Below are positions 4,372 through 46,548 of a stretch of 59,496 nucleotides of DNA, piece by piece. The stretch is from a virus: positions 1 through 59,496 of the IMG/VR virus record IMGVR_UViG_3300022884_000001, one strand, 5' to 3'. A program made the position numbers and the translations under genes. The notes beneath the pieces were generated by a model. It worked only from the letters and a program-made list of their open reading frames with translations, was not told where the DNA came from and did no database searches. Positions within the stretch are counted from its first letter, which is position 1. Every line of letters begins with the position of its first letter.

Positions 4372-4513
4372 TTATCCCTTTCTATGTTAAAATTAATTTC
4401 GTTTTATATAGATAAAGCAGATAAGGGTGGCAGGCCGTCTGGGCAAAACCCTGTTTCATGACCACCATTTTGTATAAAAATACTCGGCCTCATATCCGCT
4501 AAAAACAATGATA

Positions 4514-4544: not shown

Positions 4545-4558
4545 AAAAACGCGATAAA

Positions 4559-5014: not shown

Positions 5015-5682
5015 GTCATTACCTTTCTTCCGGGAATATACACCTCTTCATCACTTGTTCTTCCCAGTATGTTTTTTAGTATTTCATCCATCATTACCGT
5101 ATTCTGTTCCGCCACTGTATACGGACCCATCTTACAATCATACTCTTCCCCCAGCCGGTCTTCGTAATTAGTATTCAGAGGACACCGATATCCGGAAGAC
5201 GCTTTCTTACTTACAAGCTTGCATATGTCCTTAAGAGGCCCTTTAAAACTAGCTAGAGTTTCTCCAAAAGATCTACGTACAGATTCGTAGTCAGATATAG
5301 CCAGGCAGGGCTTGTAGTTCATGTACTCTTTCAGCCCGACCCAACTATTACCGGCTATCAGCTTTCTGTTCCACCAGTCATTATTGTATACTATGTAGGA
5401 TATGTTATTCTCCTGCATAAGCCCGACCAGTTTATTTTCTACTACTTCGGGCAGGACAGCCTCTGCATAATAACTGTTGATAGATATTCCGGTATACTGC
5501 ATGTTGCCCCTTACATTACCTCCCAGAACATATTCGTTATACAGAACTCCTTTAAGCATATAAGCTACCTGAACAATAGCGGCGTCTGCTTTTACTGAAT
5601 CAGACGCCATGTTCAATACTATATAATTATCAGGATCCTGTACCCCTGCCTTCTCTTTAAGAAACTCCCTGATAATACCCAT
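5011..5682 (-). CDS. Hypothetical protein, possibly a degenerate DnaQ-like exonuclease fold
   Basis: 223 aa. The strand pattern (YIVLNMASDS near residue 20, YIVYNNDWWNRKLI near 100, a C-terminal VAEQNTVMMDEILKNIL helix) loosely recalls DEDD exonucleases, with IVLD-x-E replaced by LNMAS. If that reading is right the first catalytic residues are lost. It overlaps the methyltransferase upstream and the resolvase downstream, so it belongs to a DNA-metabolism run. Function unassigned. Confidence 0.7.
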   Translation of the reverse strand: MGIIREFLKEKAGVQDPDNYIVLNMASDSVKADAAIVQVAYMLKGVLYNEYVLGGNVRGNMQYTGISINSYYAEAVLPEVVENKLVGLMQENNISYIVYNNDWWNRKLIAGNSWVGLKEYMNYKPCLAISDYESVRRSFGETLASFKGPLKDICKLVSKKASSGYRCPLNTNYEDRLGEEYDCKMGPYTVAEQNTVMMDEILKNILGRTSDEEVYIPGRKVMT

Positions 5683-15399: not shown

Positions 15400-17169
15400 T
15401 TATTGTTGTGGGGGATCCCACTTAAGTAGAAATCCCTGTTCATTATGTATCGGTTCCGCCTCTTTGTACCAACGGTCCATCAAAACCGATTCTGTTCTTA
15501 TCGCGACGTCCGGAATTACCTTAGTCATTCCTTTAATCATTAACTCTTCTACATGCCCTACCTCTTCAGACATTTGTTGTGGGTTGGTTATTTTTATTTC
15601 GTTGATTGTCTCATCATGGATAAATGCAACTGTTCGTATACGTTCTTTAAACATTAACCACAGTGCTTCTTTAGCTCCGTCACTGGCTAAACTCTGGAAA
15701 GAATTATTACAACTCTCTGTGTATGAACACATTCCACGAATTCTACCGGTTAGTGTTTTACTAATATATTTACCGGGATACTCGAGCTGTTGTTCAGGAC
15801 AAAGATGTTCTTTCATTTCCGGAAACGCTTTCAACCACATATTCCTCATATGCTCCGCCTCCATATACGAGACAGTTAATCCAAATCCTTTAGCATACTG
15901 AACAAATGTTTTAGCAGATAGGCCTCCTGGAAATCCAAAATTCGGAATCTTAGATTTCTGACGTTCTGATTTTGTTATTTTATCCTCATCTTTAGAGAAT
16001 ATAAATGAACCTAGATATTTATGACAATCTATACCTTCATTTATTTTATCTGCCAATACACTCTTTCCCTGCTTAATCAAAGTATCCTGTGCTAAAGCAC
16101 ATAATTCTACCTGAGAGTAATCACTAGCATTAAACCAATGCCCCTCTGTCGGAATAAAGATTCCTCTAAGTCCTTCAGCCTTTGGAAGGTTTTGGCAGTT
16201 AGGCTTTGAGCTGGATGTGCGACCAGTTACAACACAGCTATTAAACCGTGTATGTACCCTACCGTCCTTTCCAATAACATCTTCGCCAAGATAAGTCTTA
16301 ATCATCTTATTGAGATGTGCCTGCTTTGAATAGGCATCCAGAAAGGGATCCGTAATATCCAGCCCGTCCAGTACTTCCTGACCAGTCTTTATTTTATTAG
16401 TCTTAACAGTACGGGGCAATTTAATATTATACTTAAATTCCAAATCCTCCATATACTGCTGCATAACCAATTGATTGCCCTTCTGTCCCGGAATGAAGCC
16501 ATTATCCTCCATTATAAGAAGACAGTCATATAGTGCAGTCTGAAACTTTGTTTCCAAACGACTTCGTTCAGACTCATCAACTCTCAGCCCCAATCGGCTT
16601 ATATAGTCAAGAGCGATAGCACCTTTAACCTGTACATCCTCTGTAGCCTGATATTCAAGCTTCATAGCTATATCATATGTATGTACCGGATCATCAGCCG
16701 CGTATTCAAGATGGGCTGTGCTGGGGTCTTCACTCCTGCTGAATGTAAGACGTATGTCCTCATTCTTATCTATCTCTCTATTCAGAACATGCTTACATAC
16801 ATATTTCAGAGATCGCTTTGTCAGATAGCCTTGTCGTTCAATCTGCATCAGAACAAATCTAAGCATCGTGTCGACTATTCTTCCTTCATCCACAGCTTTT
16901 ATCAGAAACTCGGGATATCCTAACACAGCCATATCAAATGCCGCGTTATGAAATATGAATCTTCCTTTAGGATTCCACGTATTCAGTTCATTCAGATATC
17001 CTGGGATATCAGGCCACTCTACCAGATGCACTATATTCCCATCGTATACCTGCATCAGAACTACATTGGGGATTGTATGATCGACGATAAGTTCTGTCTC
17101 GGTATCTATGGCTATGTCCGGAGCACAATGTACACTTTCTCCGGGGCACCACAATACATATTTAGCCAT
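15400..17169 (-). CDS. Family A DNA polymerase with 3'-5' exonuclease
   Basis: 589 aa. Exonuclease motifs: IAIDTETE (D22, E24), FHNAAFD (D79), YAADD (D159/D160). Polymerase: TGRTSSSKPNCQNLPK (315-330), motif A ASDYSQVELCALA (D350), motif B RQKSKIPNFGFPGG (403-416) and motif C IHDE (517-520). This is the compact T7-like arrangement without a 5' nuclease domain. It should be the replicative polymerase, acting with the primase and helicase genes just upstream in the transcript. Confidence 0.95.
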   Translation of the reverse strand: MAKYVLWCPGESVHCAPDIAIDTETELIVDHTIPNVVLMQVYDGNIVHLVEWPDIPGYLNELNTWNPKGRFIFHNAAFDMAVLGYPEFLIKAVDEGRIVDTMLRFVLMQIERQGYLTKRSLKYVCKHVLNREIDKNEDIRLTFSRSEDPSTAHLEYAADDPVHTYDIAMKLEYQATEDVQVKGAIALDYISRLGLRVDESERSRLETKFQTALYDCLLIMEDNGFIPGQKGNQLVMQQYMEDLEFKYNIKLPRTVKTNKIKTGQEVLDGLDITDPFLDAYSKQAHLNKMIKTYLGEDVIGKDGRVHTRFNSCVVTGRTSSSKPNCQNLPKAEGLRGIFIPTEGHWFNASDYSQVELCALAQDTLIKQGKSVLADKINEGIDCHKYLGSFIFSKDEDKITKSERQKSKIPNFGFPGGLSAKTFVQYAKGFGLTVSYMEAEHMRNMWLKAFPEMKEHLCPEQQLEYPGKYISKTLTGRIRGMCSYTESCNNSFQSLASDGAKEALWLMFKERIRTVAFIHDETINEIKITNPQQMSEEVGHVEELMIKGMTKVIPDVAIRTESVLMDRWYKEAEPIHNEQGFLLKWDPPQQ

Positions 17170-17172
17170 TAT

Positions 17173-17349
17173 CTACTCCTTTTTAAATTCTCCACACCAT
17201 TCGGTACTCTCTGTTTCAAGCCATAGACCTATTAAATTACTCTGCGCTATGGGAGGGGGGTATCTTTTACACTTTCCCCATCTCAGTTGTATATTAGCAT
17301 ATTCTTTTTCAAACCAGAATATACATTCAGAACACTCTTCTCTATTCAT
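17173..17349 (-). CDS. Small Cys-containing phage protein (58 aa)
   Basis: 58 aa (MNREECSECIFWFEKEY...WCGEFKKE) with a C6-x2-C9 pair and two further single cysteines at about 28 and 52, as in a small zinc site. It ends right before the polymerase start and overlaps the preceding small gene by 8 nt. Function unknown. Confidence 0.7.
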   Translation of the reverse strand: MNREECSECIFWFEKEYANIQLRWGKCKRYPPPIAQSNLIGLWLETESTEWCGEFKKE

Positions 17350-17494
17350 CTTCAGCCCGCCCCTCCTTTTTATCTGAATCCATCTTTTCTTTAATTTTTC
17401 CAGTCGTGTAATCCATCAGAAGGTTAAACCCCTTCTTACATAGATCAGCTGCACTGTCTATCAACTGTTGTATACTACTTACTGTCTTGTCCAT
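17342..17494 (-). CDS. Small hypothetical helical protein (50 aa)
   Basis: 50 aa (MDKTVSSIQQLIDSAADL...), amphipathic helix then a charged tail. Start and stop interlock with the neighbouring small genes, and AAAAGGAAT lies before the ATG. Function unknown. Confidence 0.65.
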   Translation of the reverse strand: MDKTVSSIQQLIDSAADLCKKGFNLLMDYTTGKIKEKMDSDKKEGRAEDE

Positions 17495-17693
17495 TGTTTA
17501 TTCCTTTTGTTATTTCACCACATCGTGTACATACATCATGCACATATATTTTATCTTGAGAGCGTTCTATTTCATTAGGAGTCTCCCATACTATGTTCTT
17601 GATATCTTTTGAATCTAGATTATCAGGCCATATACTATGATATCTAGGTTCGAAATTATGACAATCTCCTCCTTGATATATACATTCAGTCAT
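17475..17693 (-). CDS. Small putative zinc-ribbon protein (72 aa)
   Basis: 72 aa from MTECIYQGGDC at 17693; an earlier ATG lies inside the primase gene. It has a Cys/His N-terminus and a C-terminal CTRCGEITKG knuckle, suggesting one split zinc site. It follows the primase with one base between. Role unknown. Confidence 0.7.
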   Translation of the reverse strand: MTECIYQGGDCHNFEPRYHSIWPDNLDSKDIKNIVWETPNEIERSQDKIYVHDVCTRCGEITKGINNGQDSK

Positions 17694-17694
17694 T

Positions 17695-18723
17695 TCAACC
17701 ACCTTTAACTTTCTCAATTATAAGTTCCCACAGTTCATCAACTGTGTAATCTGCGGGGTCTCCTTTAGATAATTGTACTAAATAGAAACCTTTATCGAAT
17801 AGCCCTTCCCTGTACTTCTCGTAGAATTCCAACGCCTCTTCCGCCGCATCTGCATCCAGCAAAAGTACTCCGGCATTACCTCCCAGAGAATGCTTAATAA
17901 TCTGAGCCTGCCGGGTGGAAGGAGATTTACCCAGGCAGCTAATAGCCTTCGCTCCTATCCTGTGTACATCGGTTATACCTTCAACTATGATTGTCCACAG
18001 TTCCCTGCGATTCATGTCTCTGTTGTATATAACCTGACTTTTAAGAGACCCTTCGGGAAAGTAATACTTGCGAACTCCCTGCCTCTGCTGATCCTTTGTT
18101 GGCTCCCAACACAGACGAGCCTGCCAAAAGGCCATTTCCCCGTTATAATATACAGGGTAGATAATCTTAGGCCCGTTGTACGGATACTCTTCCAGAACCT
18201 CACAGCAATGTACGTCCCAGCTGTTATACAGAATATCCAGATCAAACTTTCTACCTGTAAGGTATTCTTTGACCTGCCCCGGAGCTTCCGGAGAGTTTAC
18301 CGGAATACAATTATCCGGAAATTTAAACGCGGCTACTTTCTTCTTCTTATAATTTGCCGGTAGTATCTCTGCTTTATAATCATCAAAATTTATTTCCTTT
18401 CCTATCTGTTGTTTAAGTTCATAGTTAGAACATCTTTCATTATGACAGTAGAACAGACTGTTGGTCTTTACTTTGAAATCACCCCTCTGAACCTTTTTAA
18501 ATGCCCAGTGGCTGATAAACAGTCTGTGTTTCCTATCACCGCAGGACGGGCAGTTTACCTTATACTCTTCCCCGTCCTGACACCGTACAGCCCTTAGAGA
18601 CTTACCATCCTTAACCGTCTCAAGGGCCCCTTCACCTCCCATGTTCACCACACTCACATCATCATCGAATATTGTGCAGAGCGCATTGAACAGGGGTACG
18701 TTCATTATATTTTCTTTATTCAT
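17695..18723 (-). CDS. DnaG-like primase (zinc ribbon plus TOPRIM)
   Basis: 342 aa. N-terminal zinc ribbon with C58, C61, C93 and C98 (CPSCGDRKHRLF ... FYCHNERC), then a TOPRIM domain with the EG glutamate (IIVEGITDV, E248) and the DxD pair LLLDADAAEE (D290, D292). It is compact, as in phage primases, with no fused helicase: the helicase is the next gene upstream. It would lay RNA primers at the fork. Confidence 0.9.
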   Translation of the reverse strand: MNKENIMNVPLFNALCTIFDDDVSVVNMGGEGALETVKDGKSLRAVRCQDGEEYKVNCPSCGDRKHRLFISHWAFKKVQRGDFKVKTNSLFYCHNERCSNYELKQQIGKEINFDDYKAEILPANYKKKKVAAFKFPDNCIPVNSPEAPGQVKEYLTGRKFDLDILYNSWDVHCCEVLEEYPYNGPKIIYPVYYNGEMAFWQARLCWEPTKDQQRQGVRKYYFPEGSLKSQVIYNRDMNRRELWTIIVEGITDVHRIGAKAISCLGKSPSTRQAQIIKHSLGGNAGVLLLDADAAEEALEFYEKYREGLFDKGFYLVQLSKGDPADYTVDELWELIIEKVKGG

Positions 18724-18731
18724 AAATACTC

Positions 18732-20225
18732 CTATTCACCGAACTGAGCCGTCGCCGACTCACTGTCCAGCCCTTTAAGATGTCCGACATCCGCTTTACT
18801 GCGGTTACCGGAATTATCACGGTTGTCCATTGTTTTAACTTTAGGAACTATCTTTCCGTTTGTAAGCATAAAATCATTATCCGCTTTCACAAACTTTATA
18901 TAATCCCCTCTAAGTTTTACGAGTATATCAGAAGACGCTGTAGCTCTTACTTTAGAAGCACAGAACCATGCTATCTGTTCCTCAGACAATACTCCTATCG
19001 CAAAACAAACATCCATATACCACGCGAATCCTTTCCATTCAGCCGCATCTGTCCAGTTAGGTTTCCTGTTAGAGGAAGCTCCTGCCTTGTCAGCTGTCAA
19101 CTGGTGATTGACTATTATTATTATATTACGGTTGTTCTTCATAACTTTCAGAGCATCCATAAACTGTGTCGAATAGAGACGGAAAGACTCGTTTGTTAAA
19201 CTTGTCACTCCTTCTCCCACCATAGCTCTCTGTACCAGAGGAAGCAGCCAATCTATTACTACCAACGTAGGGGGGCCTTCTTCGGGAAGATTAAACTGGT
19301 CTAGAATATACTGTATATCTTCCAGACCCTTTGTTCCCGCTATCCCCTTACTCATATCCGCCATATGAAATCTACCTTTTATTCCTTCAATAGACTTCGT
19401 ATACTTTTCACGGACACCGTCTTTCAGCTCCTCCATTGTCTTCCCTCTGAATAATTCAGTGGAAAGACCTGTTACAGCCGAACACAGTCTGGAAGATATA
19501 TCACCCTCCAGGGGCTGTTCGTACGATAGTAATACAGAGTGTCTGTCCGGATGCTGTCGTATCCATGAGATAAGAACTTGTATAGCAAAGGTAGTTTTAC
19601 CTCCGCCGGAGGGTGCCAACAACCCCAGCAGATCGTGTCTCCAGGGGCCTCCTCGAAGCATTGTATCTACAAATTCAACACCAGTAGGAAATACTTCACT
19701 GTGCGTCATGTACTCCCCCATGTTTTCCAGAGGATTCATAATACTCATCTGATCGGACATCCCCAACCTGCGACTGTCGATCTCCGAAGACATTTCCTTC
19801 AATATACTTCCAGTAGTTGTACCTCTTTCAAGAACCATTTCCAGCTTCTTCGTAGTATCCCTGGCTATCTGGTTATTAATAACTTTTTCAAGTATATTAT
19901 TAGCTATAGAGGGACTTAGTTCTTCGGTGTCAATTTTGGAAGCGTATTCAAAAGTCTGTTTTACCAGATTTTTTATAGTGTCGTCAAACCCTGATTCTTC
20001 CAGACGTTCATATACTTTATATTTAAGACTTCCTACCGCCATAAACTCATTGTGCTGGTAGTAAATATCCCGGATGACCTTAGCTATAAAGTCATGGGCT
20101 GTATACTTAACCGGATCAAAAACCGGCTCATCTGTTTTCTCAACAAAATTTAAAAATGTCTTAGGGTCTTTCAGAATATGTAGAAGAAGTATATCATAAT
20201 CGCACTTACTTAAAATATCACTCAT
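18732..20225 (-). CDS. Replicative DnaB-like helicase
   Basis: 497 aa. An N-terminal helical part (about 1-170) precedes a RecA-fold motor: Walker A LAPSGGGKTTF (204-213), catalytic-Glu strand VLLSYEQPLEGDI, Walker B LVVIDWLLPL (321-330), and a sensor strand NIIIIVNHQLT. Length and order fit a hexameric 5'-3' helicase. It is directly followed by the primase and overlaps the gene before it by 8 nt. Confidence 0.9.
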   Translation of the reverse strand: MSDILSKCDYDILLLHILKDPKTFLNFVEKTDEPVFDPVKYTAHDFIAKVIRDIYYQHNEFMAVGSLKYKVYERLEESGFDDTIKNLVKQTFEYASKIDTEELSPSIANNILEKVINNQIARDTTKKLEMVLERGTTTGSILKEMSSEIDSRRLGMSDQMSIMNPLENMGEYMTHSEVFPTGVEFVDTMLRGGPWRHDLLGLLAPSGGGKTTFAIQVLISWIRQHPDRHSVLLSYEQPLEGDISSRLCSAVTGLSTELFRGKTMEELKDGVREKYTKSIEGIKGRFHMADMSKGIAGTKGLEDIQYILDQFNLPEEGPPTLVVIDWLLPLVQRAMVGEGVTSLTNESFRLYSTQFMDALKVMKNNRNIIIIVNHQLTADKAGASSNRKPNWTDAAEWKGFAWYMDVCFAIGVLSEEQIAWFCASKVRATASSDILVKLRGDYIKFVKADNDFMLTNGKIVPKVKTMDNRDNSGNRSKADVGHLKGLDSESATAQFGE

Positions 20226-20721
20226 GCGCTACCTCTTTGTATTCCGGAAAATATCTCTCGCCAAACTCATCAAAGTATTGCCTCAACTCAGGCATACTTC
20301 TCAGCTCATAGATAGCTCCCTCATTATATTTTTCTTTATCCTCCAGCCCTTCTATAGAGGCTAGGATGTATTTGAACAGGGTGAAAAATGTCTCCAGATT
20401 TGAGCTGATTATCTCTTTTACAGACTGTCCTGACTGTAATAAATATCTGAGACGTTTCTTCTCCAGCTCTGTCTTTATTCTATTTTCACCGATACGAATA
20501 TTTCTGAATGCCTGGAATTCCTCCCATGCCTTATCAGAACATACTATACCTTCCACAAGTTTATCAGGCCCCCAGTACCTGTATACATAATGACAATACT
20601 CGTAGGGGGATATACCTGTAGATTCCAGTTTGACAATAAGCTCTTTCACCTTCTCACTGTCCTTAAGACGGTACGGAACATTGAATTCATGTACCTCTCT
20701 GTTTATATCATTGTATGTCAT
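20218..20721 (-). CDS. Hypothetical protein next to the helicase
   Basis: 167 aa, helical, charged, no motif recognised. It sits directly ahead of the replicative helicase and overlaps it; helicase loaders are often found there, but no loader signature is visible. Its start shares a base with the HNH gene's stop. Confidence 0.75.
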   Translation of the reverse strand: MTYNDINREVHEFNVPYRLKDSEKVKELIVKLESTGISPYEYCHYVYRYWGPDKLVEGIVCSDKAWEEFQAFRNIRIGENRIKTELEKKRLRYLLQSGQSVKEIISSNLETFFTLFKYILASIEGLEDKEKYNEGAIYELRSMPELRQYFDEFGERYFPEYKEVAHE

Positions 20722-21593
20722 TATTTATTCCTTTTTTCACCAAACATCACATAGCGGTCCCTATGAAAACTATACTGCAGAGACCCCTCTTTTTTAATAT
20801 CTTCGTCCAATAATTCTATCATATCCTTGCTACTGTTTACTATTTTAAGAATATGGCTTAGAAAAGAAGGTATTGAATGAGCCGCTTTCATAATATTACA
20901 CACGGGACAACAACTAACTGTATTATCTGTGGTATATCCTTTTAGAGCATTTTTACAATCTATTCCACTTCTAATTAGCCCAGCGGAATCTACTGCGGGA
21001 GGTTCACTACAATAAAAACAATCGCCTTTAAAAAGAGACATACATTCTTCTTCTAATAATTCGAAACATCTACCTCTTTTTAATGCATTCTTTTTATAGG
21101 TTCGTATTATTCTATGCCACTTAGCTGCATCTCCCTTTAATAAATTATGTTCTATACGATGTTCTTTTCCACATTTGCGACAACTCTCTTTACCACTCAC
21201 TAAAATAGCTGCGGCAACTAATTCTTTTTCCCCACAAGAGCATCTACACAACCATTGCCAAGGGTGTATAGCATTATCTGTTTTAACAGGTTTTAGAGCA
21301 GTTAAATTACCATATTTTATACCTGTTCTATCAACAAACCTGATATTACAAATACCTTCTTTACAACTAAGTTTACTTTTATCACAAACTATTTTTTCAT
21401 GCCCACATTTCTTACATTTAAGTTTTACCATATGTTGTTTAGCGGGACTAAATTTACCATATTTATCAGTATAGTTATACATTTTAATAGGTAATTCTTC
21501 CAGCAATTCAAACTTAGTATTATCAAATTTATAAGTATATTCCTTCTTTTTACTAACTTCTACAACACCTGCATCAATATTTGTTGTATCCAT
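20721..21593 (-). CDS. Free-standing HNH-type homing endonuclease with zinc ribbons
   Basis: 290 aa. It has three Cys-pair zinc segments (CKKCGHEK, CRCSCGEKE, CRKCGKE), then a C-terminal HNH-like domain: CFYCSEPP, SGIDCKNALKGYTTDNTVSCCPVCNIMKAA, the GxDr-N-x-x-GYt-x-xN-x-x-x-C-x-x-CN-x-mK pattern of phage HNH enzymes, here with Cys after Asp. It lies between the SF2 helicase and the helicase-linked gene and looks more A+T-rich than they do, as expected of a recent mobile insertion. It could drive the nearby ORF-less intron in trans; this is a guess. Confidence 0.8.
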   Translation of the reverse strand: MDTTNIDAGVVEVSKKKEYTYKFDNTKFELLEELPIKMYNYTDKYGKFSPAKQHMVKLKCKKCGHEKIVCDKSKLSCKEGICNIRFVDRTGIKYGNLTALKPVKTDNAIHPWQWLCRCSCGEKELVAAAILVSGKESCRKCGKEHRIEHNLLKGDAAKWHRIIRTYKKNALKRGRCFELLEEECMSLFKGDCFYCSEPPAVDSAGLIRSGIDCKNALKGYTTDNTVSCCPVCNIMKAAHSIPSFLSHILKIVNSSKDMIELLDEDIKKEGSLQYSFHRDRYVMFGEKRNK

Positions 21594-21659
21594 GTCTGTA
21601 TCCTTTTTATTAATAAATTAATTATAAGATACAATACACTGTATAAAGAAGGTTGTCAA

Positions 21660-23075
21660 TTACAATTTATCATCATATATCACTTTCCACCCTGCCTTTT
21701 GATAATGCTTTATACGGCTTTCACTACTTCTTTCCAATGTTTCGTTAAAAGTATCCTTAAAGTCAATAAGAATTCCTTTTTCCTTGTTTTTGTCCAGTCT
21801 GCTTAAACGTCCCGGTATCTGAATGTTAGGAATAGCTCCAGACAGCCCATCTCCCCTCACAAGTGCTCTTAAATGAACAAAATTTACCCCCTCACGGAAC
21901 ACACTTGTTGAAATCACTTTAGTCAATTCCGCCGTCTCAAACTTATTCTGACACTCCATCATCTCTCTGTCTGACATACGTTTATCGGAAGTCAGCCCTC
22001 TTTTGACGAATCCCGCATATCTCTTCTCAGAGCAATTGGAATATACAACTGTGTAGTCAGGGAGTTCCTTCTTCAGATTCATAGCATGCTCAAGTGTCTC
22101 TACCATTATCAACACCTGCTCGTCGGGACCGTACTTATTAACTATCTCGGCAATCTTTTTATTACGATTGACGTTCTTCCACAGCCCCCACCTTTTTATA
22201 GCTATTCTGCCTGACGTGTCCAGAGTGTCTCCACGCATTGTATACATATGTACTTCTATAGGTACTACAGAACCTGCGTCAACAGCTTCCATATATGTAT
22301 AATCAAAGCGTACCGGTCCGAACATAGATTCAAGTGCCATATCCGCTCCATCACATCTGCCTTCAGGGGAGGCGCTGAAACCAAACTTCCTGGCTCTGGA
22401 AAACTTAGCCAGCGCTCCTGAAGTTGTAACAGCCCCGACACCGTGGCATTCATCGAACATCAATAGATCAGTCTTCTCATAGTCTGTCTTCAGAAGAGAC
22501 TTTACTGTCGATACAACTATCCTCCAGTCAGAACCTGTGTTCTTCCACGAAGATATTATACCCACGTTTTCCTTAAGCACAATATCAGATATCAAACGTT
22601 CATACAGAGATTTAACTACCGACTTACGTGGAGTACATATTACTATCTTCAGATAGGGATACATCTTACAGATCTGTTGTATCAGATAGGATTTACCAAA
22701 CGATGTCGGAGCCTCTATGACTCCATTGTAGTTCTCAGCTATTCTGACAAGCGCCACATCCTGCCCATCCCTCAGTTCAAGAACATCCACCTTCGAGAAG
22801 TCAGGGACCGGGAGTGTACTCCATACTCTATAATCTTTAAATGTATATACAATATTACGCTTATTCAGATAGTTCCTGACTCTGTCCAGAAGACCCTCAG
22901 GAATATATCCTACCTGTTCGCCATCCACCTCGTGCGTGTAATACATTGTTTCCTTACGCATCTTAGGCTTGCCTCCGGAAGGGCTGAACTCCCTGCGCCA
23001 GAAAAAGAGCTCCCCCTCCAGCTCAGGCATCCAGGGTCTTATCATCAGAAGGTTTCCAGATAGACTCAGTTCCAT
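21660..23075 (-). CDS. SF2 DNA helicase (UvsW-like)
   Basis: 471 aa. Motif I EAPTSFGKS (121-129), motif Ia CTPRKSV, motif II DECH (208-211), motif III GFSASP, and motif VI IQIPGRLSRLD. Order and size match UvsW-type and related SF2 helicases for recombination and origin-to-fork transitions. The N-terminal 100 residues would bind DNA. AAGGAG lies before the ATG. Confidence 0.88.
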   Translation of the reverse strand: MELSLSGNLLMIRPWMPELEGELFFWRREFSPSGGKPKMRKETMYYTHEVDGEQVGYIPEGLLDRVRNYLNKRNIVYTFKDYRVWSTLPVPDFSKVDVLELRDGQDVALVRIAENYNGVIEAPTSFGKSYLIQQICKMYPYLKIVICTPRKSVVKSLYERLISDIVLKENVGIISSWKNTGSDWRIVVSTVKSLLKTDYEKTDLLMFDECHGVGAVTTSGALAKFSRARKFGFSASPEGRCDGADMALESMFGPVRFDYTYMEAVDAGSVVPIEVHMYTMRGDTLDTSGRIAIKRWGLWKNVNRNKKIAEIVNKYGPDEQVLIMVETLEHAMNLKKELPDYTVVYSNCSEKRYAGFVKRGLTSDKRMSDREMMECQNKFETAELTKVISTSVFREGVNFVHLRALVRGDGLSGAIPNIQIPGRLSRLDKNKEKGILIDFKDTFNETLERSSESRIKHYQKAGWKVIYDDKL

Positions 23076-23092
23076 TTTACTACTCCTTTGTT

Positions 23093-25111
23093 TTAAACTT
23101 CAATTACATAGTCTGCAATATTTGTTATCTTCTCTTCGTGCGTTGCCACTATCATCTGAATATCCTTTATCTTCAAGTACTCCTTGACAAGACTGAATGT
23201 CTCAGCCAGATAGTCCTTAGAGTCAGAATCCATATGATTAGTAGGTTCGTCAAATATTATCATGTTTATCTTAGAAGCAAGCATTTCTGATATAGCTAAA
23301 CGAAAAGCGATAGTTAATAACATCCGCTGTCCACCTGATAAGTCCGAAATACTAACTTCGGGATTATCCGGGAACGAGCAGACGACAGCGAGATCTTCAT
23401 TGATACTAATACAGAAAGGTTGTTTAAAGACATTAAGATATTTACCGACCAATCCGGTCAGTATACCTCTATATGCCGATATCATCTTTCTGGGAAAGTT
23501 ATCAACGTGCAATACTTCACGCACATTTCTGAGAAAGCCACGATATTCTTCGCACAGCCCTCTCAATTGTATATAACCTTCCTTCTCTATTAGCTGCTTA
23601 TTAAGCATCTCAATTTCTTTCTCTTTACCTGCCAGCTCACTTGCTGCTGACATTATAAGAGAATCTCTAAGTTCTTCATAATCTTTAATGAATTTTATAT
23701 CGGAGGCACTTATTTCAGTGTGTCCTTTATCTATAAGTTCTTTCAGATTACGTTGATCTATTTCTATCATCATTTTTAATTGGTGTATTTCTTCAACCAA
23801 TTGTTTTCTAAGCTCTTCTGTATTGGAGAATGCTTCCGCTTCTCCTACTTTTTCCAGATATTCCTTCTCATTGAAATTTTCTACCATGGTAGATAATTCA
23901 ACAAATATTTTTTCTTCTCTTGTACTCTGCTCCGTTAAGGAGTCATACATCTGTCTATTCTTTAGATAAGTTTCCATCTCACCGGAAGCTTCCTGTTTAG
24001 CTCTTTTCAAATGAGAGACAAACCTCTCAGAAGTTTCCATCTCACCACATAATACAGCCAGTTCCCCATCTGGAAGACTTGCTTCCTGATCGCATGTAGA
24101 ACAGACACCTCTTGAAAACGCTTCGTATTTCTGTTTGTAATGTATAGCGTTCTTAACAGCTTCCTCCAGCCCTTCTTCGGAAAAAGCATCCGGCTTTTCA
24201 ATGAAACCTACCTTTACTAATTCTTCCTGTATACCGAGAAGTCTTCTACCGGCATCCATAGCCTTCGTATACGTGCTGTACACAGCCCTCTCGGCTTCTG
24301 TTACGATTACCGTATCTCCACACCCCTTTAGATCGAGCGCCTTCTGCTGATGCTTAGAAGCCAGTCCTTGGATATCAGCTTCTATACCTTCTACAGCATC
24401 TTCCCATTCCTTCTTTGTATAGGATACAGATACCTGTGTAAGATTCTCGTATCTCTCTTTGAACTGAGCGAGTTGATCTCTGTGTCCAAGTAAGGTACCT
24501 CTGAGAAGATTCGCCTCCAGTTTAAACAAAGCTATGTTTTCCCCGATAGACTGTACTTCTTCTGAGAAATCCTGATACGTATCTACCTGTCCGCTTAAAG
24601 ACTGCAGTAACTCTCTGATCTTCTCGAAACGAAGATACCCGAACAGTCTGCTGTATTCCTTAAGACGTTCCATGTTGTTACCGAAAATAAGTTTCGTAGT
24701 CCCTGTCTGAGACATGAAACTGGATAACGTCAATAGTCCTGCATCCGCCTGTAACAGCTCTGATATCTTTTTATTGATATCCGTAGCTTTATTAGCAGAT
24801 AATTTAGTATCGTCTATTTTCCAGGACATAGAAGCAGAAGCATTATGCATGTTACGCTTAACAGTATATTCAACTGTGTCCACTTCGAATAGTAATTCGA
24901 TAAATCCTTTTTCAGTACCCCACTTAAGCATGCCTGAACGTGTCTTCTTTTCTGTGAGGCTTTCTCCGGTAAGCGAATAGAATATTGCGTTCAGCAGATT
25001 CGATTTACCAGCCCCGTTACAGCCCGTTAATACTGCCAGACCCTTTTCGAAAGTAATCTCTCTATCGGAGTATTGGCAGTAATTAAACAGGCGCAGCTTT
25101 TTTAATTTCAT
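23093..25111 (-). CDS. Rad50/SbcC-like recombination ATPase (T4 gp46 type)
   Basis: 672 aa. Walker A TGCNGAGKSNLL (29-40), long coiled-coil arms with a zinc-hook CSTC (337-340), ABC signature LSGGQRM (591-597), Walker B MIIFDEPTNHMD (about 617-628), and a His-loop VATHEE. Coils are short, as in phage gp46. Partner of the Mre11-like product of the overlapping gene at 25083; together they process DNA ends for recombination. Confidence 0.95.
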   Translation of the reverse strand: MKLKKLRLFNYCQYSDREITFEKGLAVLTGCNGAGKSNLLNAIFYSLTGESLTEKKTRSGMLKWGTEKGFIELLFEVDTVEYTVKRNMHNASASMSWKIDDTKLSANKATDINKKISELLQADAGLLTLSSFMSQTGTTKLIFGNNMERLKEYSRLFGYLRFEKIRELLQSLSGQVDTYQDFSEEVQSIGENIALFKLEANLLRGTLLGHRDQLAQFKERYENLTQVSVSYTKKEWEDAVEGIEADIQGLASKHQQKALDLKGCGDTVIVTEAERAVYSTYTKAMDAGRRLLGIQEELVKVGFIEKPDAFSEEGLEEAVKNAIHYKQKYEAFSRGVCSTCDQEASLPDGELAVLCGEMETSERFVSHLKRAKQEASGEMETYLKNRQMYDSLTEQSTREEKIFVELSTMVENFNEKEYLEKVGEAEAFSNTEELRKQLVEEIHQLKMMIEIDQRNLKELIDKGHTEISASDIKFIKDYEELRDSLIMSAASELAGKEKEIEMLNKQLIEKEGYIQLRGLCEEYRGFLRNVREVLHVDNFPRKMISAYRGILTGLVGKYLNVFKQPFCISINEDLAVVCSFPDNPEVSISDLSGGQRMLLTIAFRLAISEMLASKINMIIFDEPTNHMDSDSKDYLAETFSLVKEYLKIKDIQMIVATHEEKITNIADYVIEV

Positions 25112-28415: not shown

Positions 28416-31400
28416 TTGTTTCACATGTCAGAATTATCCACACAATTTAAACAAACTTTACAGGGATATCATAGCGGAGCATACAATTCCTACCTCCCAA
28501 TGCTTCCATATCTGCAGTTAGACGGTAAGCCTATGACTCTTAATCTGCATTATCCACTGGAACCCTTCTTTAAACTTACAATGCCTCGTAGGGTAGTGTT
28601 TATGGTGGCCCGGCAGTTGGGAAAAAGTATATCGCTTGCTTCCAGAGGTCTTTTAGACAGTGCAATGATACCTAATTTCCATACTTTATACATTCAGCCC
28701 CGTTATGATCAGATAAAAAGGTTCTCCACTAACTATGTAGGGCCTATTATCAAGGAAAGTTACCTCGGTAGGGTGTTCGAAGACCCAACCAGAGAGCAAT
28801 CTATCCTGCAGAAGAGCTTTAGAAACGGTTCTAACATGTATTTCTCGTATGCTTTCCTAGATTGTGAGCGTTGTCGTGGATTTGCGGCAGCTAAATGTTT
28901 AGCGAAAGGTACTTTGATACAGGGGACTCCTATAGAAGATTTAAAAATAGGGAGAATCCTTGAATCGGTCACTAATGAAGGATATATTATACATAATAAA
29001 GTCCAGAGAGTTGAAAAAACAGGGGTAAGACCTTGTTTTCGTATAACTTTAAATACTGGACATACTTTAACATGTACAATAGATCATAAATTATTCAGCG
29101 ATGTAGGTTGGATAACTATAGAGGAAATGGTGACTCATGCTTTCAGAAAAACAAAGACAGATGTTGTTGGGAACTCTTCTAGGGGACGGACATTTACAAA
29201 TAGGAAGTTTAAAGAAGAAAACTTGCCGTTATCAATCAGCGCACGGATGGATTCAACACGACTACAATACCCAGAAATACATAATAATGAAAAATTATTT
29301 AACTCCGAGACAATTGGGGCTGGGAGAACCACAGAAAGTCGAGAACAGGGGGTTCGGGGAATGGTCCAGTCGATGGGGCACGACAACCAATACGGATTTG
29401 TTCTTTTTACACGAACTGATACACCTCCCTGGAAAGAAAAAGAAGACGATATCTCAGGAATGGTTAGACTTGATAACTCCCGAAGGGCTGATGTGGTGGA
29501 TATGCGACGACGGGAGTTTGCGAACAAAAGATCGACGATCTATACAGATACATACCGAGGGATTTCAAAAAGAAGAGGTAGAGCTCCTTTCAAAATGGCT
29601 CTATCAAAAATTCGATATAGAAAACAATGTTGTTCCTATAAAATCAAGAAGAAATATAGGGAAATATTATTATATTCTATGTTTATCTGTTCTAGGAACC
29701 AGAACCTGCGTGGATTTAATTCGGGAATTTACTCCGAAATGTATGAATTACAAGATAGATTATCGAAAACTACTCTGCGTAGAATGTGGGACAGAGATAC
29801 AGAGCAACAACAAGACATGTTCCGAAAAATGTTTTACCGACCATCATATAAAAAGGACGGCTATTTATACTCAGAAAAACCAGAAGAGAATAAACAAAAG
29901 AAAGAGGGAATATTATGCCTCTCATCCGGAAATGAAAGAAAAGAAGAGACAATATATACAGGAGTATTTAAAGGATCCTCAGAAAAGAGATCTCCACAAT
30001 GCTACTCGAAGGAAATGGAGACATTCAAAAAAGGGAGACCCTGTATACGAACAAAAACTAAAAGAGGAACGGAAATTTTATTATCAAAGATTGAAAGAAG
30101 ATCCAGAAAAATACAACAAAAGAATAGATCATCACAATGCTTGGCGTCGAGAAAAACGAGTCAAAGGGGATACCTCCGAGACGGATTATACCAGGGAATG
30201 GAGAAAACGAAACAAAGAGAAAGTAAAGATTCAAAAGCAGAATCAGTACAAGAAATTAAAGAAACGTATGGAGGAGGATCCTCAATACAGACAGGAATTT
30301 TTAGCTCGGAAGAGGGAAAATTATCACAAGGGGAAAGAATCTCTTCAAAAGGGAAAGTGATTTCTATTGAATATGTGGGTATTAAAGATGTGTATGATAT
30401 TCAAATGGAAAAACAACCTAACTTCTTTAGTAACAACATCTTAACTCATAATTGTTGCTTTGACGAGATTTCTGACATACAATACGACTTTATTAGTACA
30501 ATAGGTGAGGTTTTAAGTGCCCAGACCGAATATGGATTTTATCAGTTTACCGGAACCCCTAAAACTATCGATAATACGCTGGGTGTTCTGTTTTCAGACA
30601 GCTCTCAGGCGGAATGGATCATCAGATGTGGGTGCGGTAAACATAATATACCTAGTCTGGACCATGATTTATTACGGATGATAGGAAAGAAGACCTGTAT
30701 CTGCGCTAATAAGAAATGCGGTAAGCCTCTGGATATAAGTACAGGAGAATATGTGCATGCGTACCCCGATAGACAGCATTCGTTCGCCGGATATCATTTA
30801 TCGCAGATAACACACCCTCTGCATGCTGAATTTCCTCTTAAATGGAGTGAGATGCTTTATAAGAGGTCTACTTATCCGGAAGCTAGATTTAATAACGAGG
30901 TATTAGGGGTCCCGTGTGATGAAAATGTTAAACCTCTGACAGTAATGCACCTTAAACAGGCTAGTAACGGGCTTATCAATGATTACTCCAAGGCTGTTAA
31001 AGAACGTAAGAAGTACGATGCTGTAGTTATGGGAGTGGACTGGAGTGGATACGGTGCAGATAGTATATCGACAACGACAGTAGCTGTAATAGGTATAATA
31101 CCCGGAAGCGAAACGGTACACTGTATATATGCTGAGAGATTTAAAATAGGGATAAAACCAGAAGACGAAGCTAAGAAACTTATTGAATATGCTTACCAGT
31201 TCGAGATAACATATTTTGCACACGATTTTTCAGGGGCTGGAATGATAAGGGAAGCCACAATAGTCCAACGGGGATACCCCGTGGAGCAAATAGTACCCTT
31301 CCAAATCGTCCACGCCCCTGTTAACACTAGTATCATCAACTTCTACCAGCCCGCAAATGGTGGTAGAAGTTGTTACAATATAGATAAGACCCGTTCTTTA

Positions 31401-31718
31401 CTGGTTCTGTTCGAAATGATTAAGAAACAGCAGGTAACTCTTCCCGACTGGGAAAAGAACGACGGGAAGACTAAGGATGTATTGAGTGATCTGCTGAATA
31501 TAATGCAGGAGACGAGAGAAACTCCCCGCGGTAAGGATTATACCCTTATGATTAAAGTCCCTAACAAAACAGATGACTTTGCTTTCTCTCTTAATCTAGC
31601 CTGTTCCGCTATCTGGCATATTAGGGGCAGGTATCCGTCGCTGGTTACCAGTGTACAGGGTCCTTCCTACGAGGATATGGCACTGGCTGACCCGCATCTA
31701 GCTAACTGGGATGTATAA
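28416..31718 (+). CDS. terL: Terminase large subunit with in-frame intein
   Basis: 1100-aa precursor. The N-extein has the packaging-ATPase Walker A VARQLGKS (64-71). The host protein is interrupted at K160/C161 by a 519-aa intein and resumes at CCFDEISD, where the FDE is the Walker B and catalytic Glu. The rest has FTGTPKT (motif III-like), a Cys zinc cluster (CGCGK, CICANKKCGK) and the RNase H-type nuclease start VMGVDWSG. The spliced protein is about 581 aa, normal for TerL. The start is read as TTG at 28416, 8 nt after GGAAGGG; ATG at 28425 is possible but poorly spaced. It packages DNA into proheads. Confidence 0.92.
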   Translation: MFHMSELSTQFKQTLQGYHSGAYNSYLPMLPYLQLDGKPMTLNLHYPLEPFFKLTMPRRVVFMVARQLGKSISLASRGLLDSAMIPNFHTLYIQPRYDQIKRFSTNYVGPIIKESYLGRVFEDPTREQSILQKSFRNGSNMYFSYAFLDCERCRGFAAAKCLAKGTLIQGTPIEDLKIGRILESVTNEGYIIHNKVQRVEKTGVRPCFRITLNTGHTLTCTIDHKLFSDVGWITIEEMVTHAFRKTKTDVVGNSSRGRTFTNRKFKEENLPLSISARMDSTRLQYPEIHNNEKLFNSETIGAGRTTESREQGVRGMVQSMGHDNQYGFVLFTRTDTPPWKEKEDDISGMVRLDNSRRADVVDMRRREFANKRSTIYTDTYRGISKRRGRAPFKMALSKIRYRKQCCSYKIKKKYREILLYSMFICSRNQNLRGFNSGIYSEMYELQDRLSKTTLRRMWDRDTEQQQDMFRKMFYRPSYKKDGYLYSEKPEENKQKKEGILCLSSGNERKEETIYTGVFKGSSEKRSPQCYSKEMETFKKGRPCIRTKTKRGTEILLSKIERRSRKIQQKNRSSQCLASRKTSQRGYLRDGLYQGMEKTKQRESKDSKAESVQEIKETYGGGSSIQTGIFSSEEGKLSQGERISSKGKVISIEYVGIKDVYDIQMEKQPNFFSNNILTHNCCFDEISDIQYDFISTIGEVLSAQTEYGFYQFTGTPKTIDNTLGVLFSDSSQAEWIIRCGCGKHNIPSLDHDLLRMIGKKTCICANKKCGKPLDISTGEYVHAYPDRQHSFAGYHLSQITHPLHAEFPLKWSEMLYKRSTYPEARFNNEVLGVPCDENVKPLTVMHLKQASNGLINDYSKAVKERKKYDAVVMGVDWSGYGADSISTTTVAVIGIIPGSETVHCIYAERFKIGIKPEDEAKKLIEYAYQFEITYFAHDFSGAGMIREATIVQRGYPVEQIVPFQIVHAPVNTSIINFYQPANGGRSCYNIDKTRSLLVLFEMIKKQQVTLPDWEKNDGKTKDVLSDLLNIMQETRETPRGKDYTLMIKVPNKTDDFAFSLNLACSAIWHIRGRYPSLVTSVQGPSYEDMALADPHLANWDV
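28896..30452 (+). mobile_element. Intein in TerL, immediately before Walker B
   Basis: Codons 161-679 of the terL frame. The first residue is Cys161 (CLAKGTLIQGTPIEDLKIG, splicing block A); block B has GHTLTCTIDHKLF with the T-x-x-H. The C-terminal blocks are VGIKDVYDIQMEKQ and FFSNNILTHN, with His-Asn at the end and Cys as the +1 residue. So it is a class 1 intein with all the usual nucleophiles. Between the splicing blocks, residues 241-648 in this frame are a Lys/Arg/Ser-rich sequence unlike any endonuclease; the endonuclease is encoded by another frame of the same DNA. Confidence 0.93.
29137..30360 (+). CDS. LAGLIDADG homing endonuclease nested out of frame in the intein
   Basis: 407 aa in the +1 frame relative to terL, bounded upstream by TGA two codons before its ATG. 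Two LAGLIDADG motifs: LLGTLLGDG (10-18) and GLMWWICDDG (117-126). The second half of the domain (IHTEGFQKEEVELLSKWLYQKFD, YYILCLSV, FTPKCMNYKI) matches the LAGLIDADG_2 type. Then a C4 finger (CVEC...CSEKC, 214-232) and basic Tyr-rich repeats to the end, probably DNA-binding. GAGGAAATGG lies upstream. It would cut intein-less terL alleles. It lies wholly within the intein. Confidence 0.92.
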   Translation: MLSEKQRQMLLGTLLGDGHLQIGSLKKKTCRYQSAHGWIQHDYNTQKYIIMKNYLTPRQLGLGEPQKVENRGFGEWSSRWGTTTNTDLFFLHELIHLPGKKKKTISQEWLDLITPEGLMWWICDDGSLRTKDRRSIQIHTEGFQKEEVELLSKWLYQKFDIENNVVPIKSRRNIGKYYYILCLSVLGTRTCVDLIREFTPKCMNYKIDYRKLLCVECGTEIQSNNKTCSEKCFTDHHIKRTAIYTQKNQKRINKRKREYYASHPEMKEKKRQYIQEYLKDPQKRDLHNATRRKWRHSKKGDPVYEQKLKEERKFYYQRLKEDPEKYNKRIDHHNAWRREKRVKGDTSETDYTREWRKRNKEKVKIQKQNQYKKLKKRMEEDPQYRQEFLARKRENYHKGKESLQKGK

Positions 31719-43160: not shown

Positions 43161-43587
43161 ACTCCCTATAAGCGGAGAAACTATCTTTATAAAAAAGGCT
43201 AAGCCGATAAATCCCGGAGATACAGGAAGTATGTTTATAGACCGTATGTATGCTCAGGGAGGTTTTGTTATAGTTCAGATATTGAACTACACTACAAATA
43301 AAATGCAGAAGAAAATGCTGGATCCTTCTGATGCTGTTCAGAGACTCAATGCTATTCTACAGGGATTCCCCCCGCAGTATGTTCCGGATGGATTTAGAGA
43401 AGCTGTTATAAAGGCTGTTATTGCTGCTAAGCGTCAGACATTAGAAGGGGAAAACGAACTGTATAAACAGAACCTGGACATAGACGATCTTACAGAACAA
43501 CTCAAAGCGGATATTAAGGCTGAGCGTGAACTTGATCCCGAGCTTGATAAAGAAATGAGAATAATCGAGTTGGCTAATAAACATTAA
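43108..43587 (+). CDS. Hypothetical protein (159 aa)
   Basis: 159 aa, basic start (MSRKKRRDKRSTRNPS), then LKLPISGETIFIKKAKPINPG and a helical acidic end. AGGAG lies 8 nt before the ATG. It converges with the adhesin gene and their stop codons overlap. No family recognised. Confidence 0.74.
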   Translation: MSRKKRRDKRSTRNPSLKLPISGETIFIKKAKPINPGDTGSMFIDRMYAQGGFVIVQILNYTTNKMQKKMLDPSDAVQRLNAILQGFPPQYVPDGFREAVIKAVIAAKRQTLEGENELYKQNLDIDDLTEQLKADIKAERELDPELDKEMRIIELANKH

Positions 43588-46199
43588 GTAGTAGAACTAC
43601 TGGAAGGCATGGCTTCTGTACTGCTTGAAGTCATTACTTCCGAACTACTAGAACTAACAGTAGGTCCTCCCCATCCCTCAGGTATTCCGTCCCAGTTAGT
43701 TAGACTACTATCGTTATGTCCGGTAAAGGCGTTCGTTCCAGTTAAAGTTCCATGTGCGTTCCATAAGTCAGGTGCAGTTCCGGCAGATGCCGCTGTACTT
43801 GCGCTAACCCTAAAGAAATTAGTAAAACTAACCGTTTGTCCACTAAACCTTGTAGTTTTTGTTACGGCCCCCGATTCATCATAGAATAACCACGGAGACA
43901 TAACTAATTTAGAACAATTTTGGAATGTATTTATAAATGATGGGGCAGTAGTATTGTATTTAAACAATCCATCGGGGACACTCGTTAAACCATTACAAGT
44001 ATAGAATGTATCAGTAAAACCATTATTTGTAACTAATGTATTATAACGGAATAAATCAGCAGGCAATGTTGTTAAACCAATACAATTATAGAATGTTCGA
44101 TAAAAACCACCTGATGAAACTTCTGTATTATACCTAAATAAATCAACAGGTAATGTTGTTAAACCAGTGCATCCAAAGAATGTTACATTAAAACCCGCCC
44201 CTGAGACTAACGTATTATATCGGAACAAATCAACAGGTAATGAAGTTAAACTAGTACAAGTATAGAATGTTCCAGAAAAGCAATTTGTTGAAGCTAACGT
44301 ATTATATTTAAACAAATCTATTGGTATTGATGTTAAACCACAATTTTTAAATGTCTGTGTAAAACTGTATATTGAACTCAGGGTATTATATCTAAACAAA
44401 TCAGTTGGTAATGATGTTAGGTTAGCACAATTATTAAATGTATAGGCAAAAGCATTTGATGTAACCCCCACATTATATCTGAACAAATCAACAGGCAATG
44501 AAGTTAAACTAGTACAGCCAAAGAATGTTGAATTAAATGAAGTTATACCTGTTATACCTCTTATTGGACTCAGGATTGCAGTCAGCTTAGACGGATTCGT
44601 TAAAAATCTAAATACAGTACACTCCCCCCGCATTGTTAGAGTATAAACATTAGTTCCAGAATAAGTATGTTGTGCGGTGCCTGCTCCATTAACAGTAACA
44701 GGAGCACCTTCTCCCCAATCAATTACTAAATCAACTGCATTAGAATATGAAATACCAACCAAATCTGCGCCCGTAGTTGTTATCTCAAAATTACTACGTT
44801 CATCGAATGAACTGGAACTGCTGGAGCTGGTAGGTAATACTCCAGGAGTACTGGAGCTGCTGGTGCTTGTTATACCTAAGGAACTGCTAGAGCTAGGTGA
44901 ACTGGATGAACTAGATGAACTGGAGCTACTTGTTATACCTTCTGAACTACTGGAACTACTTGAACTAGAGCTGGATGAACTAGAACTGCTAGAACTACTT
45001 GTTATACCTTCTGAACTACTTGAGCTGCTGGAACTGCTAGAACTGCTGGAGCTTGAAGAGCTACTGGAAGAACTGGTACTGCTGGAACTTGTTGTTAAAG
45101 CTTCTGTACTGGAACTTGAAGAACTGCTTGAGCTGCTACTGCTAGTACTACTACTCGAACTAGTTGTTTTTATCTCTGTACTGGAAGAACTGGCGCAATC
45201 CCCGGACGCAACATCAGGTGCAGGAGCCGTACCTGTATAAACAGCCCATGGTAATTCATCAGGAGACACATAGGGATGTGTAACAGGTGTATGATAATCC
45301 TGAGTTATCCCCCTCTGTCCCAAAGCCCATTGACTTGTAGATGTAAAGTAAAGTTCCTTGCCTTCTGAATTAGTAAAGTATTCATGTGTATTATAAATAC
45401 CCGCCAGCCCATAATCTCCATCATAATCTTCATCCCCAGCCCCACTTATACAATAACTATTAGGGAAAGAGGAACTGCTCTCGCTGGAGCTTGAATTGGT
45501 ACTGGAGCTTGTAGCAATACCTTCTGAAGAAGTACTGCTGGAACTGGAGGTCAACTCTTCTGTACTGCTGGAAGAGCTTGTAGTTAATTCTTCTGTACTG
45601 GAACTGGAGCTTGAACTGCTGGAAGACTGTGAGCTTGAGCTGCTTGAAGAGCTTGAGCTGTTCAGACTGCTTTCAGATGCACTGCTCTCGGATAAACTGG
45701 TTCCTGATAAAGTAGTCTCGCTGGAACTGGTAGAAGAACTACTGCTTGTACTTGTTGTTGAATTAATAGAACTGGAAGAACTGCTGTCATGTGTACTTTC
45801 TGAGTTACTACTCTCGGACTTACTGGTTTCGGAGGCGCTCGAAGGAGTCTCTCCCGAAGATTGAGAACTGCTGGAACTGCATGGATAATTGGTAAATAAA
45901 ATCTCGTCAGATACTTCTTCTATCTGATTATAAATAACATATAGTTTATTAAGGTCTACAGTTATAGACGCAAGCATTTCCGTAGCGAAATCATTTCTTC
46001 TGTAATAGAGATCGATGCTATCTGAGCGATATACATCTCCTGTATCTTCCGGTACCAATAACATATCGGGAAGAGAAGAGACTTGAGCATATACTCCGTC
46101 TACATAAGTAAAAGGATTAACTTCCGCTACACTTATTCTAAGTCTGGATGTATACAGGTCCGGAGCGGCAGTTACTATACTGGAGGTGATAGTCCACAT
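43584..46199 (-). CDS. Poly-Ser / BspA-type leucine-rich-repeat adhesin or tail fibre
   Basis: 871 aa from ATG at 46199 (AGGACGG before it). Order: N-terminal domain (about 1-105), long Ser/Thr/Glu linker, a Cys-flanked middle domain (YCISGAGDEDYDGDYG...APDVASGDC), a second poly-Ser linker, a short beta domain (ITTTGADLVGISYSNAVDLVIDWG), about seven BspA-like (DUF285-type) repeats with LTSLPVDLFRYN and FxxTFxxC, and a Ser-rich end. BspA-type repeats occur in surface adhesins, so host binding is likely. At the promoter-distal end of the tail genes, where receptor-binding proteins usually lie. Confidence 0.85.
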   Translation of the reverse strand: MWTITSSIVTAAPDLYTSRLRISVAEVNPFTYVDGVYAQVSSLPDMLLVPEDTGDVYRSDSIDLYYRRNDFATEMLASITVDLNKLYVIYNQIEEVSDEILFTNYPCSSSSSQSSGETPSSASETSKSESSNSESTHDSSSSSSINSTTSTSSSSSTSSSETTLSGTSLSESSASESSLNSSSSSSSSSSQSSSSSSSSSSTEELTTSSSSSTEELTSSSSSTSSEGIATSSSTNSSSSESSSSFPNSYCISGAGDEDYDGDYGLAGIYNTHEYFTNSEGKELYFTSTSQWALGQRGITQDYHTPVTHPYVSPDELPWAVYTGTAPAPDVASGDCASSSSTEIKTTSSSSSTSSSSSSSSSSSSTEALTTSSSSTSSSSSSSSSSSSSSSSSSSSSEGITSSSSSSSSSSSSSSSSSSSEGITSSSSSSSSSSSPSSSSSLGITSTSSSSTPGVLPTSSSSSSSFDERSNFEITTTGADLVGISYSNAVDLVIDWGEGAPVTVNGAGTAQHTYSGTNVYTLTMRGECTVFRFLTNPSKLTAILSPIRGITGITSFNSTFFGCTSLTSLPVDLFRYNVGVTSNAFAYTFNNCANLTSLPTDLFRYNTLSSIYSFTQTFKNCGLTSIPIDLFKYNTLASTNCFSGTFYTCTSLTSLPVDLFRYNTLVSGAGFNVTFFGCTGLTTLPVDLFRYNTEVSSGGFYRTFYNCIGLTTLPADLFRYNTLVTNNGFTDTFYTCNGLTSVPDGLFKYNTTAPSFINTFQNCSKLVMSPWLFYDESGAVTKTTRFSGQTVSFTNFFRVSASTAASAGTAPDLWNAHGTLTGTNAFTGHNDSSLTNWDGIPEGWGGPTVSSSSSEVMTSSSTEAMPSSSSTT
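43930..44560 (-). repeat. BspA-type LRR coding repeats
   Basis: About seven units of some 32 codons, each with L-TSLP-x-DLFRYN and F-x-x-TF-x-x-C. DNA copies are similar enough (for example ATTATATCGGAACAAATCAAC-like blocks) to allow recombination between units and change in repeat number. Confidence 0.8.
44800..45195 (-). repeat. Poly-Ser linker tandem repeats, second block
   Basis: About 130 codons, mostly Ser with STE, EGIT and TSTS breaks. Codons mix AGC, AGT, TCC and TCT in repeating order, so the DNA is a degenerate tandem repeat likely to vary in length. Confidence 0.8.
45470..45885 (-). repeat. Poly-Ser linker tandem repeats, first block
   Basis: About 138 codons rich in Ser with STEEL, TSS and SES variants, between the N-terminal domain and the middle domain. 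Same codon mix as the second block, but more Thr and Glu. Confidence 0.78.
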
Positions 46200-46200
46200 A

Positions 46201-46548
46201 CTACACCGTCCTGTCCAGAGCATCACAAAGGTTTTCTATGTCCTGTGCCATCTGCAGTAAAGTATTATATACTAATTTAGAATCCTTTATAACGATATCT
46301 ATATATTCTTTCCGGAAGAAAGAGAAATCTGTTCCCACGGTATCTTCCGGATATTCTGATATATCTGAGGGCTGTGCTATATTTACAAATACATTTCTCA
46401 GACTTGTGTTATAAGGTACAGGTAGTTTATGCTGATATACAAATATCTTAGCTGTCATATGGTCAGTCTCAGATGTCCAGGCTTGAAGTCTCCATTGTCC
46501 ATCTATCTGAAGTGTTAAATTATATTTTACTGTTATTTTGTGTTCCAC
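46201..46548 (-). CDS. Hypothetical protein (115 aa), adsorption region
   Basis: 115 aa, beta-rich start MEHKITVKYNLTLQIDGQWRLQAWTSET, helical end. Directly upstream of the adhesin in the transcript, so possibly an assembly partner or chaperone. No family recognised. Confidence 0.72.
   Translation of the reverse strand: MEHKITVKYNLTLQIDGQWRLQAWTSETDHMTAKIFVYQHKLPVPYNTSLRNVFVNIAQPSDISEYPEDTVGTDFSFFRKEYIDIVIKDSKLVYNTLLQMAQDIENLCDALDRTV

Follow-up and report, generated by a model that had tools for sequence, protein, structure and literature searches.

The gene for the large terminase subunit (terL) of a virus in the IMG/VR record IMGVR_UViG_3300022884_000001 carries an intein, and the intein DNA also holds a complete LAGLIDADG homing endonuclease gene (HEG) in another reading frame; the window analysed here is the whole stretch of 59,496 nucleotides, positions 1 to 59,496 of that record. 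Very probably, this is a homing gene that is translated from a start of its own and lies out of frame within a TerL intein, the frame of which is under selection to remain open so that splicing can occur. According to this explanation, a class-1-type intein in the TerL Walker B region would host an independent HEG of the I-SceI/LAGLIDADG_2 type out of frame. A ribosome would read terL straight through and decode the HEG DNA in the wrong frame as an unstructured linker of ~400 residues, around which the two intein ends would form a HINT domain that removes the intein by splicing. The endonuclease would be made from this mRNA as well, by a second ribosome initiating at the internal ATG at 29137, and by cutting terL alleles that have no intein it would allow the intein to be copied into them. 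The terL frame over the HEG would be selected only for the absence of stops, and the HEG frame for its protein.

The terL intein and its nested gene

The terL open reading frame (ORF) extends over 28416-31718 on the plus strand (1100 aa, with ATG at 28425 more likely the start than TTG at 28416), reads through the whole intein as one open frame, and encodes a product matching phrog_675 (terminase large subunit). The N-extein (28416..28895) holds the ATPase part and ends just before Walker B; the C-extein (30453..31718; phrog_675, residues 681-1075) starts with CCFDE of Walker B and is followed by the nuclease part. The 519-aa intein between them (28896..30452) has C1 at 28896 and N519 at 30450-30452, directly followed by Cys+1 (CLAKGTLI...LTHN, then CCFDE), and these boundaries fit the coordinates given for it in the first-pass annotation. 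In the terL frame it matches PF14890 (Intein_splicing) with 43.8 bits (cutoff 35.8), and its residues are those of a class 1 intein: C1, TIDH as the block B TxxH, and the His-Asn of LTHN preceding the Cys. Blocks A and B, including TIDH, lie in the N-terminal splicing half (28896..29150), and blocks F and G, ending in LTHN, in the C-terminal half (30348..30452; TIGR01443, 18.8 bits, cutoff 15.6). AlphaFold models the 519-aa intein confidently only at residues 1-85 (pLDDT about 85-93) and 485-519 (about 86-94), and in the model these ends match the HINT-like splicing domain of the Mtu RecA intein, in addition to the profile match above its cutoff. The ~400 residues between the ends have a pLDDT of about 35, so that the HEG DNA, when read in the terL frame, seems to yield a disordered linker.

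The nested HEG (29137..30360, plus strand) lies wholly within the intein DNA, one base out of phase (+1) with terL, and encodes 407 aa with its own ATG and TGA. As had been proposed from the letters alone, it is a complete two-motif LAGLIDADG enzyme: the +1 frame matches PF03161 (LAGLIDADG_2) with 84.8 bits (cutoff 25), and its sequence matches in the PDB are I-SceI and a related intron endonuclease. The first motif, LLGTLLGDGHL (29164..29196), contains Asp17 and the second, WWICDDG (29494..29514), contains Asp125, both invariant in an alignment of 22 sequences spanning in-frame and out-of-frame relatives. The AlphaFold model made with these aligned sequences has a pLDDT of 87 and an I-SceI-like fold (1r7m, E 5e-12), I-SceI and I-WcaI being its best PDB matches (TM-score 0.76 by target length). 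Between the core and a basic helical tail, a CxxC...CxxxC treble-clef-like zinc site is predicted (29776..29832); matches of this region to PF13240/PF09889 are weak and below the Pfam cutoff, and similar cysteines are found in four of the relatives described below (L020, L021, L023, and L024). The window HEG shares the fold and two-motif architecture of the intron-encoded I-SceI and I-WcaI, but resides in an intein and has the added cysteine site and the long basic tail.

An open frame of this length is not a matter of chance. terL and the HEG overlap over 408 codons; among the other same-strand overlaps in the window, the longest has 121. The first-pass annotation had estimated the probability of such an overlap at 1e-9, as 61/64 to the power 408; this estimate is naive and ignores composition, and it was replaced by a test in which synonymous codons were shuffled within the HEG, with protein and codon usage unchanged. 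In 4000 draws the terL frame contained 27.4 stops on average and never zero, which is the observed number, and host-frame stops were likewise zero in all the other nested cases tested. That the splicing blocks are joined by an open terL frame, as first noticed, thus holds for all 408 codons. The tail of the HEG has low complexity and abounds in lysine and arginine, and one might take the open frame to result from a composition rich in lysine or from biased codon usage. This is highly improbable, since shuffles preserving both still yield 27 stops, since host-frame stops are never seen in the cyanobacterial relatives described below while other HEG-synonymous changes are free there, and since helicase inteins whose host frames are broken (Amona and L064) occur as split genes instead.

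It is equally hard to credit that sequencing or assembly frameshifts have displaced an endonuclease that truly shares the terL frame, the usual state in inteins, a possibility that the first-pass annotation itself had named. In-frame LAGLIDADG_2 inteins of the same family do exist, in the KLEP7 RNA ligase and at L030, L038, L042, and L047, and the genes concerned encode RNA ligase, SNF2 helicase, aminotransferase, and phosphoesterase. However, such an error would require two indels of opposite effect plus loss of the HEG stop. Moreover, two other IMG/VR contigs (L001 and L002) have identical DNA across the whole element, and a third (L003), which covers the element only from 30341 on, has a single mismatch over 4161 bases. 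Since other assemblies contain the same DNA, a sequencing error is improbable, and the arrangement recurs, independently sequenced, in many unrelated contigs, in the cultured phage FoX3, and in 52 cyanobacterial genomes. Assembly error was therefore rejected.

Nested relatives and selection on the two frames

Profile searches with the HEG, together with a scan of bacterial and archaeal genomes, found the nested arrangement in TerL, phage helicase, and cyanobacterial DnaX inteins, so that the window case, at first thought to be undescribed, is not unique. About a dozen nested TerL inteins were found in all (L017, L020, L021, L023, L024, L068, L071, L072, L086, and L188 among them), that of L188 coming from a Clostridia metagenome-assembled genome, and seven nested phage helicase inteins (FoX3, L032, L034, L035, L037, L063, and L065). 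The terL of L008 (4956-8579) holds two inteins: an in-frame LAGLIDADG_3 domain is part of the first, and the second has an out-of-frame LAGLIDADG_2 gene that has decayed within a still open intein frame. In L017 (3688-5217), unlike in the other nested inteins, the intein end is apparently Gln rather than Asn (ARPQ, then C). Between pairs of phage inteins, HEG identity is 29-54% and that of the host-frame translation 14-31%, the latter being low in every pair. Placing all phage nested HEGs in one clade is acceptable in the HEG tree (p-AU 0.42), and the tree leaves the number of origins unsettled. The phase of the HEG, however, is opposite between the TerL inteins and the helicase and DnaX inteins, which suggests that the nested arrangement arose at least twice.

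The cyanobacterial dnaX loci (L130-L183) form the largest series. The intein could be delimited in 52 of 54 loci and is open in the dnaX frame in all 52. Most of these inteins are exactly 430 aa long, and their type matches the Spl DnaX mini-intein structure 7cfv (E 7e-36). The nested HEG ORF has at least 300 codons in 41 of the 52; in the other 11 it is either interrupted by stops or shorter (inteins of 314-376 aa), and the series is a case of natural HEG decay inside a maintained intein. Two Laspinema dnaX loci (L175 and L176) have longer inteins of 522 aa with nested ORFs of 440-448 codons. Splicing has been reported for the Ssp DnaX intein (PMC3620165), which is of this type. The cyanobacterial DnaX inteins resemble the window intein in being contiguous, in lying at a Walker B Asp-Glu, and in having a LAGLIDADG_2 gene nested out of frame. 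They differ in the host gene and in the frame of the HEG, which is -1 relative to the host in DnaX and +1 in the window; Synechocystis was not among the cyanobacterial loci compared.

The comparison of synonymous and non-synonymous changes in both frames, which the first-pass annotation had called for among related phages, was carried out on 17 non-overlapping pairs of these cyanobacterial inteins. HEG-altering changes occurred at 0.17 of the doubly silent rate, and HEG-silent changes that alter the DnaX frame at 1.08 of it, both ratios being rough since as few as 21 changes were doubly silent. The contrast between the frames does not depend on the doubly silent class, since 630 changes were HEG-silent and host-altering and 100 were host-silent and HEG-altering, at nearly equal opportunity. 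Changes making a stop in the DnaX frame were never seen, although about 32 of them would be expected even if HEG-silent changes alone are counted (from an opportunity of 749 and the rate at which HEG-silent changes were observed). This substitution pattern indicates that the host frame over the HEG is selected solely against stops, and the HEG for its protein. The initial suggestion of selection on both frames is thus borne out in these DnaX pairs for the amino acids of the HEG, but in the host frame only for freedom from stops and not for amino acids.

The HEG might still be a dead passenger in an intein that persists only since splicing is needed, and the decayed nested HEGs of L008 and of the 11 cyanobacterial copies mentioned above are what such passengers would look like. 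In the window, though, the HEG is of full length, both motif aspartates are present, and the predicted fold is intact, and the intact cyanobacterial HEGs are under purifying selection, so that this alternative is unlikely.

Translation start, mobility, and split forms

A Shine-Dalgarno (SD)-like AGAGGA lies upstream of the nested ATG (29120..29125, plus strand), with a duplex energy of -7.5 kcal/mol, in the top 2-3% of positions. SD sites are found at most nested phage starts (GGAGGT in L020 and L021, GGAGG in L032, AGGAG in L024 and L037, and GGAGA in FoX3), and their duplex energies exceed the positional background with a combined p of about 5e-6, an approximate value, because start codons were picked by eye as plausible HEG-frame starts, L017 was entered with the weaker of two candidate starts, and L034, with no clear start, was omitted. 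Alternatively, programmed ribosomal frameshifting could yield a fusion of TerL-N, intein-N, and endonuclease with no internal initiation, and the nested frames of FoX3, L017, and L063 do reach upstream of the catalytic core into the N-intein. In the window, by contrast, the open HEG frame extends just one codon upstream of the ATG, which nearly excludes an upstream frameshift there, and L032, L035, and L037 are similar. Given this and the SD enrichment, frameshifting is disfavoured and quite improbable, and internal initiation at the nested ATG is preferred for the HEG.

Several points weigh against the explanation adopted here as a whole. The SD site of the window is moderate in strength, with a spacing of 11 nt, and a clear SD is absent at L035 and at the cyanobacterial starts shown. 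An intein-less close relative of the window terL was not found among the relatives searched; distant TerLs, such as that of L004, are without the insert. The known copies of the window intein are all identical, so that selection within the window is inferred from its relatives. Likewise, splicing, internal initiation, DNA cutting, and homing by the window copy are things that we infer.

An empty site is available for the helicase intein of the cultured Xanthomonas phages FoX3 and FoX2. FoX3 differs from FoX2 by a clean 942-bp insertion in the helicase, adjoining Asp-Glu-Cys, and the helicase exteins of the two have 12 differences over 1425 bp. In FoX3, helicase, intein, and HEG are annotated as one coding sequence.

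Other helicase inteins are split. In the Pectobacterium phage Amona (L057, 2117-5227), numerous stops interrupt the helicase frame where it crosses the HEG, and the helicase is split by the intein into three ORFs that overlap in series: one for the N-helicase and N-intein (2117-2899), the HEG (2734-3585), and one for the C-intein and C-helicase (3515-5227). Their annotation reads only hypothetical protein, homing endonuclease, and DNA helicase. Four further Pectobacterium phages have the same overlapping arrangement, by annotation alone. In L064 (2219-4907), the corresponding three ORFs follow one another fully separated; a strong SD precedes the HEG, whose stop adjoins the start of the C-half. 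The helicase, intein, and HEG of L064 are homologous to those of the nested L063, and L064 is a candidate natural split intein. Amona and L064 resemble fractured-gene split inteins, as the intein halves flank a HEG that has an ORF of its own. Such fractured genes, with intein halves around a HEG translated on its own, were reportedly described by Dassa et al. in 2009. The window terL differs in being one unbroken ORF that the HEG overlaps completely; a broken gene is seen in L057 and L064. Split inteins with an intervening HEG are referred to as 'fractured genes' in work that PMC11766414 cites.

A nested intein such as those of FoX3 and L063 could have become an overlapping split intein like that of Amona by acquiring a host-frame stop and a start before the C-half, and the latter could have given rise to a three-gene series like that of L064. 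These forms suggest, without proof, that nesting precedes splitting, and the reverse order is also possible. Out-of-frame nesting may even be a type of architecture that inteins in general have used again and again, with an intron-type HEG bringing its own start, and a stepping stone to naturally split inteins; this broader view is tentative, and we stop somewhat short of favouring it.

Published systems and the rest of the window

The first-pass annotation knew of no described intact intein with its endonuclease nested out of frame. Out-of-frame HEG insertions have in fact been published: the ShiLan domain and the Pacc40 insertion of phage methylases contain an out-of-frame HNH gene, with a distribution indicating homing (PMC11855218). 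The ShiLan domain is the closest published case found in the literature examined, and the likeness lies in a HEG out of frame in an insertion that is open in the host frame. These insertions are, however, without a splicing domain: the ShiLan HEG is of the HNH type and the insertion presumably remains part of the protein (PMC11855218), whereas the window HEG is a LAGLIDADG gene with a full splicing domain around it. For overlapping frames, the same paper cites Gorbalenya 1998 ('Non-canonical inteins') and a preprint by Gosselin et al. 2025 that deals with non-canonical inteins of actinobacteriophages. An out-of-frame endonuclease in an intein may have been reported before, in either of these or in the 1997 description of the DnaX intein (Liu & Hu). 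Canonical bifunctional phage inteins, such as those of mycobacteriophage TerL, carry the endonuclease as one of their own domains, in frame (PMC5050341). The window intein resembles these in its location in the TerL ATPase domain and in its splicing halves flanking a homing endonuclease, and differs in that its endonuclease is offset by +1.

This arrangement keeps one stretch of DNA open for two products that have nothing to do with each other, a linker that is discarded and an enzyme that is conserved. Such double coding spans large evolutionary distances and affects important genes for terminase, helicases, and the DNA polymerase III clamp loader. HEGs inside inteins are missed by annotation, FoX3 being an example, and a route to natural split inteins becomes directly testable.

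In the window of 59,496 nt, no second intein or HEG was found. An 880-aa protein encoded on the minus strand at 43584-46226 has phrog_9915, of unknown function, as its sole match. The minus strand at 15400-25111 encodes replication and repair proteins, namely a DNA polymerase, a DnaB-like helicase, a second helicase, and an SbcC-like subunit, on the strand opposite to terL.
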